From Nitratireductor sp. ZSWI3 (lineage in GTDB: Bacteria; Pseudomonadota; Alphaproteobacteria; Rhizobiales; Rhizobiaceae), in assembly GCF_024655565.1 (NCBI RefSeq), contig NZ_JANKOF010000015.1:1-64000 (forward strand): a stretch of DNA of 64,000 bases, given 5' to 3'. How positions within the stretch are numbered: position 1 is the stretch's first letter; each line of letters opens with the position of its first letter. Positions 28,999 through 31,281 of this stretch are shown here, piece by piece. Made by a program: the position numbers and the translations under genes. The notes under the pieces were generated by a model, which was not told the DNA's origin, did not search any database, and saw only the letters and a list, made by a program, of their open reading frames with translations.

Positions 28999-30189
28999 TT
29001 ATCTGTCTACCTCACCAAACACGATGTCGAGGGAGCCGAGCACGGCGGCGACGTCGGCCAAAAGATGGCCGCGGCACAGGAAATCCATGGCCTGGAGATG
29101 GGCAAAGCCCGGCGCGCGCAGCTTGCAGCGGTAGGGCTTGTTGGAGCCGTCGGAAACGAGATAGACGCCGAACTCGCCCTTCGGCGCCTCCACGGCGGCA
29201 TACACCTCTCCCTCCGGCACGTGATAGCCTTCGGTGTAGAGCTTGAAGTGATGGATCAGCGCTTCCATCGAGCGCTTCATCTCGCCGCGCTTTGGCGGCA
29301 CGACCTTGCCGTCCATGTTGGAGACGGGACCGGTGCGCTCGGCTCCCAGAAGGCGCTCGACGCACTGGCGCATGATCTTGGCCGACTGGCGCATCTCCTC
29401 CATGCGGATCAGGTAGCGGTCGTAGCAGTCGCCGTTCTTGCCGATCGGAATGTCGAAATCCATGTCCGGATAGCATTCGTAGGGCTGGCTCTTGCGCAGG
29501 TCCCAGGCAGCACCCGAGCCACGCACCATGACGCCGGAGAAGCCCCAGGCCCAGGCATCCTCCAGGCTGACCACGCCGATATCGACGTTGCGCTGCTTGA
29601 AGATGCGGTTGCCGGTGAGCAGATCGTCGAGATTGTCGACGGTCTCGAAGAACGGGTCGATCCAGTTGCCGATGTCCTCGACAAGCTTCTCGGGCAGGTC
29701 CTGATGTACGCCGCCCGGCCGGAAATAGGCCGCATGCATGCGCGCGCCGCAGGCCCGCTCATAAAACACCATCAGCTTCTCGCGCTCCTCGAAGCCCCAC
29801 AGCGGCGGGGTGAGCGCGCCGACATCCAGCGCCTGGGTGGTGATGTTCAGGAGATGGTTCAGGATGCGGCCGATCTCGGAGTAGAGCACGCGGATCAACT
29901 GGCCGCGGATCGGCACGTCGATGCCGAGCAGCCGCTCCACGGCGAGCGCGAAAGCATGCTCCTGGTTCATCGGCGCGACATAGTCGAGCCGGTCGAAATA
30001 CGGGATCGCCTGCAGATAGGTCTTGGCCTCGATCAGCTTCTCGGTGCCGCGGTGCAAGAGGCCGATATGCGGATCGACACGCTCGACCACCTCGCCGTCG
30101 AGCTCGAGCACCAGGCGCAGGACGCCATGCGCGGCCGGGTGCTGCGGGCCGAAATTGATGTTGAAGTTGCGGACGGAGGTTTCAGGCAT
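28999..30189 (-). CDS. nuoD: NADH-quinone oxidoreductase subunit D
   Basis: 396 residues from ATG 30189 ([18 protein letters not shown]), with ggag ten bases upstream. Quinone-binding 49-kDa-type subunit; [13 protein letters not shown] carries the His at the quinone head site, and the conserved Tyr is in [13 protein letters not shown]. The C-terminus ends DIVFGEVDR as expected. Separate from nuoC (not fused as in E. coli), with the S23 element inserted between them. Confidence 0.96.
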
Positions 30190-30220
30190 CGAAGCGCGCT
30201 CCAGCAACGGGATTGCGGAG

Positions 30221-30255
30221 TGAAAGGTGAATAGTGAATGGTGAATAGTGAATGG
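30221..30255. repeat. Heptamer array flanking the S23 element (nuoD side)
   Basis: Five tandem 7-bp units on the plus strand: one degenerate TGAAAGG, then TGAATAG, TGAATGG, TGAATAG, TGAATGG. The array stops exactly where the stop codon of the four-helix-bundle gene begins (30256). It is inverted relative to the array at 30651-30678. Confidence 0.9.
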
Positions 30256-30654
30256 TCATGCATCACCTCTTCCGCGCTCCAACGAGCGTATGAACGACAC
30301 CAGCATCTTCCCCAGCTTCTCGTATCTGGCTTCAAGCCCGCGCGTCTGGCCTTCGTTGAGCAGACCAACACGTGCGGCAAGAAGAGTGTGCGTCTCAAGT
30401 TCCTTTAGCGACCCCTGAGCAACACGCAAAAATTGGACGAACACCTTTCTCTGCGCTCGTCCAAATCCTTCAGCAATATTCGCAGGAATCGAAGTCGCAG
30501 CCCGACGCATCTGGGAAGTCATCCCAAACATTTCGTCGCGCGGAAACGTGCGCGTGATTGTGTAGATGTCGACCGCGATATCCATCGAATCCTTCCAGAC
30601 GTTCAAGTCACGATAATCGTGGATCTTTTCCCGCTCTGGTTTGGCCTCTTCCAT
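30256..30654 (-). CDS. Four-helix-bundle protein, S23/23S rRNA intervening-sequence protein family
   Basis: 132 residues. The motif YRDLNVWKDSMDIAVDIY followed by MRRAATSIPANIAEGFGR is diagnostic of the four-helix-bundle family known from 23S rRNA intervening sequences and, as Avd, from diversity-generating retroelements. It lies between nuoC and nuoD, same strand, less GC-rich than its neighbours. Its ATG is supplied by the end of one heptamer array (tgaATGg) and its TGA stop abuts the inverted array on the other side. There is no Shine-Dalgarno; translation is probably coupled to nuoC, whose stop lies 21 bases upstream. Function of free-standing members is unknown; members form positively charged pentamers that bind nucleic acid. 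It has no known role in complex I, so it reads as an inserted selfish or mobile unit. Confidence 0.88.
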   Translation of the reverse strand: MEEAKPEREKIHDYRDLNVWKDSMDIAVDIYTITRTFPRDEMFGMTSQMRRAATSIPANIAEGFGRAQRKVFVQFLRVAQGSLKELETHTLLAARVGLLNEGQTRGLEARYEKLGKMLVSFIRSLERGRGDA

Positions 30655-30678
30655 TCACTATTCACTATTCACCATTCA
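30651..30678. repeat. Heptamer array flanking the S23 element (nuoC side)
   Basis: Four tandem 7-bp units on the plus strand: CCATTCA, CTATTCA, CTATTCA, CCATTCA, the reverse complement of the TGAATRG units at 30221-30255. The array contains both the start codon of the four-helix-bundle gene (30652-30654) and the stop codon of nuoC (30676-30678). Confidence 0.9.
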
Positions 30679-31281
30679 CTCTTTCGCCTTCTCATCGCCC
30701 GGCAGGACGTAGTCCGTCCCTTCCCAGGGCGAGAGGAAATCGAAATTGCGGAACTCCTGCCTGAGATCGACCGGCTCGTAGACGACGCGCTTTGCGTCGT
30801 CGTCGTAGCGAACCTCGACGAAGCCCGTCAGCGGGAAGTCCTTGCGCAGCGGGTGCCCCTCGAAACCGTAGTCGGTGAGGATGCGGCGCAGGTCCGGATG
30901 GCCGGTGAAGAGCACGCCGTAGAGATCGTAGATCTCGCGCTCGAACCAGTTGGCCGCCGGGAAGACCTCGACGACGGACGGGACCGGAGCGTCCTCATCC
31001 GTCGACACCTTGACGCGGACGCGCTGGTTCTGGCGCGGCGACAGGAGGTGGTAGACCACCTCGAAACGCTTGTCGCGGGCCGGGTAATCGACGCCCGAAA
31101 TGTCGACAAAGGCGTAGAACTGGCACTGTACGTCGCTCTTCAGGAAGGTCAGCACGTCGATAATGTCGCCCGGCTCGACCAGGAAGGTCAGTTCGCCATA
31201 GGCGACGACCGCGTCCTGAATCTGCGCGTCGAGCTTTTCCGTGACGTAGGCCGCCAGGTCCTTCAGCGCTTCGCTCATCAT
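30676..31281 (-). CDS. nuoC: NADH-quinone oxidoreductase subunit C
   Basis: 201 residues. 30-kDa-type peripheral subunit binding NuoD near the quinone site. Family signature: the segment [22 protein letters not shown] (split: [13 protein letters not shown], then [21 protein letters not shown]). A second Met directly after the first makes the start uncertain by one residue. The C-terminus GDEKAKE is followed by a TGA that is part of the heptamer repeat, so the inserted element may have rewritten the last codon(s). Confidence 0.96.

Follow-up and report, generated by a model that had tools for sequence, protein, structure and literature searches.

An S23 gene between inverted heptamer arrays in the complex I operon

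The locus studied here raised the question of what kind of unit can occupy a core operon as a single S23-family gene bounded by two mirrored arrays of a 7-bp repeat. It lies in a window of 64,000 nucleotides (the whole stretch analysed) from Nitratireductor sp. ZSWI3, where the cistron order on the minus strand, as named by Pfam, is nuoC, the S23/IVP gene and nuoD. The parts of the locus are as follows.

30676..31281, minus strand: nuoC, the upstream cistron (Complex1_30kDa, PF00329)
30651..30680, minus strand: upstream (5') arm, tandem TGAATRG on the coding strand (TRF 30653-30680, period 7, 4.0 copies)
30256..30654, minus strand: S23 / 23S rRNA-intervening sequence protein gene (four-helix bundle), ATG start, 132 aa
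30219..30256, minus strand: downstream (3') arm, tandem CYATTCA on the coding strand, TGAATRG on the plus strand (TRF 30219-30253, period 7, 5.0 copies)
28999..30207, minus strand: nuoD, the downstream cistron (Complex1_49kDa, PF00346), listed ORF, first ATG at 30189-30187
30215..30700, minus strand: segment folded as RNA, with the arms as one long stem and the gene as loop (z -7.0)

The original prediction had placed an S23 gene between nuoC and nuoD with inverted heptamer arrays at its bounds, and Pfam, TRF and arm complementarity confirmed this arrangement, far beyond chance. The product scored 128.9 bits against PF05635 (cut-off 33.8) and 126 bits against TIGR02436 (cut-off 24), and the solved structures nearest to it were 2gsc (XCC0516) and 2rld, the third listed match, 7a8s, being weak. 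The two inverted arms measured 29 nt, were 93% complementary and stood 395-406 nt apart. The close fit that had been described between gene and arrays could be read directly from the letters: the start ATG of S23 (30652-30654) falls within the final unit of the upstream array, an array that also holds the nuoC stop TGA (30676-30678), and the S23 stop TGA (30256-30258) adjoins the downstream array. When 30215-30700 of the minus strand was folded as RNA, the arrays paired as one long stem enclosing the gene, as had been proposed, with -194.7 kcal/mol and a z-score of -7.0 against 100 dinucleotide shuffles. Between the arms there was no gene other than S23, and the sole Pfam match of its product was PF05635, so the unit contains no transposase family. 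No mobility enzyme was found in the unit, and no Rfam family matched positions 30000-30900.

Breadth, period and polarity of the arrays

We pooled S23 loci from named genomes, the window's family, eight chosen genomes, cyanobacteria and the class of a Gallionellaceae genome. With 598 control ORFs as reference, a locus was counted as passing when its arm complementarity, its tandem repetition or both exceeded their 99th percentile. Overall, 180 of the 224 distinct S23 loci passed at least one of the two tests (arm complementarity in 165, tandem repetition in 112), and 44 of the 224 failed both. At least one test was passed by 58 of 70 loci in the named genomes, 60 of 76 in the window's family, 13 of 20 in the eight chosen genomes, 25 of 29 in cyanobacteria and 24 of 29 in the class of the Gallionellaceae genome. 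Among further, mostly weaker and lower-ranked S23 loci, 18 of 37 passed (12/30 in the class sample, 6/7 in cyanobacteria) and 19 of 37 failed. Loci with short flanks were left out, one from the main set (224) and three from the further set (37). The strong pass rate in the main set and the poorer one in the lower-ranked set show that the arrays are common, not universal, and rarer among weak members of the family.

The periods of the 112 significant tandem arrays were 7 (88 loci) and 8 (24 loci), with no others. The original prediction had named TGAATRG-type arrays as what to look for beside other S23 genes. Comparable arrays do flank others, and the correction concerns the unit itself, which is not TGAATRG alone: the 112 strict loci contained 61 distinct, element-specific units. 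The upstream arm was richer in G than in C at 95 of the 112 strict loci, with the reverse in 5 and a tie in 12. Of 58 distinct loci with TGAATRG- or CGAATAG-type arrays, 48 were convergent pairs, none was divergent, 8 were single and 2 were unclassified; gene-sized gaps (385-424 nt) occurred in 5 of the 48 convergent pairs. Of the two archaeal loci seen, one (L099) passed by tandem repetition alone, with repeats in the same direction on both sides, and the other (L114) failed both tests, so our claim of a two-armed form does not extend to archaea.

Stop codons were considered as a general reason for the choice of unit, and this candidate was rejected. A stop triplet was present in 45 of 82 units, compared with a shuffled mean of 39, and 122 of 2000 shuffles reached a count as high; these 82 units came from a permissive threshold with redundant loci, the strict set being the 61. 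Given so small an excess, stop codons are at most part of the story.

Matches to S23 were found in 30 plasmid records, all below 60% identity, and in the seven records that were opened heptamer repeats stood beside S23 as judged by eye (in one of them on the single available side). No S23 match was found in 50,697 phage records. Two Nostoc plasmids (L429 and L430) carry the same S23 element with downstream (3') arms that differ by one 7-bp unit, which suggests that arm length changes quickly. Two Balneolaceae genomes (G205 and G206; L171, L172, L179, L180 and others) hold 11 S23 genes each. In the Balneolaceae copies that were looked at, the flanking repeats differ, and some copies are without clear arrays.

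Gain and loss at the nuoC-nuoD junction

The same junction was compared across the host family. Among 30 nuoC-nuoD junctions, 8 held S23 with arrays, 1 held a gene-less pair (L150), 16 were empty, 4 held a different gene and 1 was unresolved. The unit is thus gained and lost, as had been supposed from the single locus: 16 of 30 junctions are empty, and different S23 lineages fill others. The empty site that was sought among relatives exists in the congener G040 and again in the closest pair, L307 (occupied) and L169 (empty), whose nuoC genes are 92% identical over the last 300 nt. The insert of L307 relative to L169 lies between TGATG and ATGACC, and an ATG is all that is repeated on both sides, which does not make a clear target duplication. 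Both observations that the original prediction had named as favouring a fixed gene were checked, and the opposite was found: some relatives are without the gene, and S23 copies elsewhere do have arrays.

In the nuoC-nuoD junction of four other family genomes (L158, L160, L164 and L168) we noted an unrelated small gene, which we take to be glutathione-dependent formaldehyde-activating-like. The junction therefore accepts inserts of other kinds.

Lineages, hosts and selection

We built a tree of 86 alphaproteobacterial S23 proteins, which has few columns and many open forks; 7 broken or weak rows and identical proteins were left out, and genomic sites were called by short protein motifs. Unit types were clustered on this tree, requiring 25 changes compared with a shuffled mean of 55, and none of 200 shuffles was as low. 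A single branch (SH-aLRT 83) separated the 20 TGAATRG-type S23s from the rest; every one of the 20 sits at nuoC-nuoD, so the gene itself was not seen moving between sites. The 8-bp-type S23s sit after glutamine synthetase in 17 of 22 cases.

The TGAATRG lineage has spread across unrelated hosts. A NuoC tree of 69 rows requires 11 changes for the TGAATRG hosts and 15 for the empty sites, and near relatives on it differ in the occupancy or type of their nuoC-nuoD junction. For an AU test on NuoC+NuoD we used 60 rows, 19 of them of TGAATRG type, after the removal of 4 long-branch rows and of junctions occupied by a different gene or by a gene-less pair. The grouping of TGAATRG hosts as one clade was rejected (p-AU 2.7e-7).

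S23 is under purifying selection. By simple counting, with dS high, the median dN/dS was 0.13 for the TGAATRG type (81 pairs), 0.11 for the 8-bp type (32), 0.21 for the CGAATAG type (4 pairs) and 0.04 for the Gallionellaceae (36), whose S23 site is presumably dnaK-dnaJ. As a separate observation, of 64 S23 frames sampled from the family, 8 are without an ATG, GTG or TTG ahead of the domain (L037, L050, L053, L057, L302, L314, L326 and also L315). In seven of the eight, an ACG stands in frame where translation is likely to start, in most cases behind a purine-rich stretch resembling a ribosome-binding site, and ACG may therefore be the start codon of those frames.

Gene-less arrays in the host genome and their co-occurrence with S23 type

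The host genome (G000; 5.2 Mb, 212 contigs) contains one S23 gene and seven loci with a 19-nt array pattern, TGAATRGTGAATRGTGAAT. The pattern occurs 33 times in this genome, and its reversed control occurs not at all here or in any of the 199 genomes searched. Further arrays in the genome might have been expected to be gene-bearing units as well, which was not the case: at each of the six other TGAATRG loci an inverted pair with the same polarity encloses a short loop that holds no gene. The loops are unrelated to one another, and the left arm of one pair (L006) is degenerate. At least one neighbour of each gene-less site was named by Pfam, namely ketoacyl synthase, CoA ligase (sucD), ribosomal S13, ATP synthase beta, SmpB and glutamine synthetase; the neighbours on the opposite sides are presumably SucA, S11, AtpC and oxidoreductases. 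The pair adjoining smpB (L014 1500-1672, G000:C61) has very unequal arms, of about 5 and 14 units. We also considered that the gene-less copies are deletion derivatives of S23 copies, and set this aside since the six loops, as judged by eye only, are without S23 ends.

The six gene-less sites were then followed in two congeners. G040 has no heptamer array at any of them (0/6). G136 has arrays at 2 of 6 (rpsM-rpsK and atpD-atpC) with the unit CGAATAG, and its nuoC-nuoD junction is occupied by an S23 that belongs to a different lineage and has CGAATAG arms. With TGAATRG throughout the host and CGAATAG throughout G136, each of the two genomes uses one unit type at all these sites.

We quantified the co-occurrence of gene-less arrays and S23 type in 199 family genomes, subtracting matches in S23 flanks; these tests ignore relatedness. 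Every genome with TGAATRG-type S23 had gene-less TGAATRG arrays (9/9), compared with 18/190 of the remainder (p 4e-9), and the comparison within S23-bearing genomes gave 9/9 versus 11/53 (p 8e-6). With CGAATAG-type S23 the same arrays showed no link (1/14 versus 26/185, p 0.70). CGAATAG arrays co-occurred with their own S23 type (6/14 versus 14/185, p 9e-4), a link that was weak among S23-bearing genomes only (p 0.08), and they also occurred with TGAATRG-type S23 (3/9 versus 17/190, p 0.05). Globally, either array type was found in 32/62 S23-bearing genomes and in 10/137 without S23 (p 9e-12). Gene-less arrays without any S23 gene thus exist in ten family genomes, among them G008 with 36 matches.

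Relation to rRNA intervening sequences and to orphan repeats

A link to the intervening sequences (IVS) of 23S rRNA was part of the original prediction, and it turned out firmer than proposed because of one locus, L386. Here an S23 pseudogene with a broken frame lies at 1436-1980 inside a 23S rRNA gene (RF02541 over 277-2799), and it too has inverted heptamer arms, with TCTTCTG units on one side and GACAGAA-like units on the other. L386 failed the arm test because its S23 frame is broken. Together with the published account of Coxiella, we take L386 as good evidence that the intervening sequences of rRNA and the free-standing elements are of one kind.

The available part of PMC4990558 describes for the Coxiella 23S rRNA IVS tandem heptameric repeats before the S23 ORF, whose number varies between strains, a 28-bp stem and excision by RNase III. 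This was the one partial precedent found. The same part of that source reports a decaying S23 frame that is probably not expressed while the IVS persists, which serves as a warning that the S23 protein can be lost; it also gives a toroidal homopentamer for a published S23 of the same fold and, in 2016, called the function and origin of IVS unclear and S23 proteins without known function. Like an IVS, the window element carries its S23-family ORF in a loop closed by inverted repeats and is patchily distributed, and it shares tandem heptamers with that of Coxiella. Unlike an IVS, it lies between the protein genes of an operon and not within a 23S rRNA helix, both of its arms are regular heptamer arrays, and its genome has gene-less copies of the TGAATRG unit. 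We did not file it as a member of the IVS, since it lies outside 23S rRNA.

Cyanobacterial STRR are a family of heptamer repeats. Like these and the GGGNATC and TAACTGA repeats, the arrays of the window are intergenic and made of a 7-bp tandem unit; unlike them, they use TGAATRG, which is not the unit published for these families. For the GGGNATC repeats of Xanthomonas and Nostoc, the counts of Rehm et al. were 70 and 75 inverted, convergent pairs in two Xanthomonas genomes, with few pairs in Nostoc, and the available part of their text states that there is generally no link of heptamer repeats to mobile elements (PMC4692102). For the TAACTGA sets of Beggiatoaceae and others, the available part of MacGregor's account has mostly direct repeats and raises the idea that the mobile element might be a protein that binds the repeats (PMC4679880). 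The few pairs in Nostoc and the mostly direct TAACTGA sets, as given in those parts, show that many orphan repeats are not two-armed. Unlike the window element, both the GGGNATC and the TAACTGA repeats are described there without any protein, and the word S23 occurs 0 times in each of the two texts. In our data, units given in those sources do adjoin S23 copies: GGGGACT (PMC4692102) does so in L228, where the S23 copy is broken or partial, and TAACTGA (PMC4679880) in L199, whose S23 copy is likewise broken or partial, and with less regularity in L359.

The available part of PMC10053308 states a structural similarity of Avd (4DWL), the partner protein of diversity-generating retroelements, to 2GSC. 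The window S23 belongs to the same fold family, and differs in scoring 25.1 bits against the Avd model, below its cut-off of 80. The one S23 relative seen near a reverse transcriptase, L327 (G025:C99), is a weak family match about 0.6 kb from it, as an Avd gene would be, and has no arrays.

REP/BIME palindromes with their RAYT transposases, and MITEs, are bounded by inverted repeats and consist of few gene-bearing and more gene-less intergenic copies. The window element resembles them in this outline; unlike theirs, its gene encodes no known nuclease or transposase, and its arms are made of tandem heptamers. In the open-licence PMC literature, outside which most subscription journals fall, we recognised no description of S23 genes between inverted heptamer arrays outside rRNA.

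Alternative explanations and a model for the element

On balance we lean towards a widespread selfish element, related to IVS, that consists of an S23 gene and inverted arrays of an element-specific 7- or 8-bp unit and is accompanied by gene-less satellites. The main competing explanation is that the inverted arrays are host-useful intercistronic stem-loops, serving mRNA processing or stability, that grew by slippage and were homogenised by gene conversion, and that S23 merely lodges in their loops. This would suit the excess of gene-less pairs over S23 copies in the host genome, the genomes that have arrays and no S23, the plain hairpin seen by eye at some empty sites (such as rpsM-rpsK and atpD-atpC of G040), the difference of one 3'-arm unit between the Nostoc plasmid copies and, in the available part of PMC4692102, the usual preservation of the Xanthomonas repeat type between two species. 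Yet S23 flanks carry arrays far above controls, so the association of S23 and arrays is not incidental; moreover, S23 lineages and units match, array type follows S23 type from one genome to another, and the congeners are mostly without pairs at the same sites. We therefore regard host stem-loops as unlikely, while giving them serious weight. The simplest account, a fixed host gene with repeats made by chance or slippage, would fit the purifying selection on S23, as for an ordinary gene, and is contradicted by the empty sites, the swapped lineages, the control counts and the breadth of the pattern. The controls and the empty sites rule out chance repeats beside a fixed gene, and we give this account practically no credence.

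A different origin of the arrays would be a repeat-adding enzyme acting at DNA ends, which would copy the unit in telomere fashion onto both 3' ends of a break before these are joined, with S23, as a relative of the reverse-transcriptase partner Avd, being an accessory protein. It would explain the convergent, G-richer-first polarity, the 7-8 bp unit and the identical units in both arms around unrelated loops, and the weak match of S23 to the Avd model (25.1 bits) points the same way. Against this, that match stays under the 80-bit cut-off of the model, the host genome has no RVT_1 (PF00078) match despite its seven array loci, and reverse transcriptase does not track gene-less arrays among the family genomes (20/78 versus 22/121, p 0.22). 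The latter two results also led us to reject a reverse transcriptase acting in trans; a weak link of reverse transcriptase to the presence of S23 remains (32/78 versus 30/121, p 0.02). We consider a repeat-adding enzyme very improbable.

In the selfish-element model that we prefer, the element sits between cistrons, with its arrays nearly always oriented so that the G-richer strand runs towards the centre. In the transcript the arms can form a long stem whose loop contains the S23 frame, which is the layout of a 23S IVS. RNase III may then cut the stem, and insertion between cistrons would in that case cost the host little. In the present locus the array also supplies the stop codon of nuoC and, its unit length not being divisible by 3, stops in every reading frame. 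An S23 oligomer may recognise its own arm type, and such recognition could drive or stabilise the spread of gene-less copies with the matching unit. We infer these three steps (RNA cutting, arm recognition and mobilisation in trans).

A more far-reaching version can be offered tentatively, as a possibility that we hold short of probable: S23 proteins may be sequence-specific partners of inverted heptamer arrays, each lineage recognising its own 7-bp unit as an RNA stem or a DNA hairpin. They would then define an unrecognised class of selfish hairpins that unites IVS, free-standing S23 genes and, as gene-less satellites, at least some orphan repeats (GGGNATC, TAACTGA, STRR), and that moves although it encodes neither a transposase nor a recombinase nor a reverse transcriptase.

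One architecture ties together the function of rRNA IVS and S23 and the source of several bacterial heptamer repeats, and it makes two questions testable, whether S23 binds its own heptamer and whether S23 causes new arrays. If both prove to be the case, a class of mobile element without a recognised mobility enzyme resides inside core operons. The package of an S23 gene and mirrored heptamers, found between genes in many bacterial groups and in at least one rRNA gene, points to a little-known kind of mobile element.
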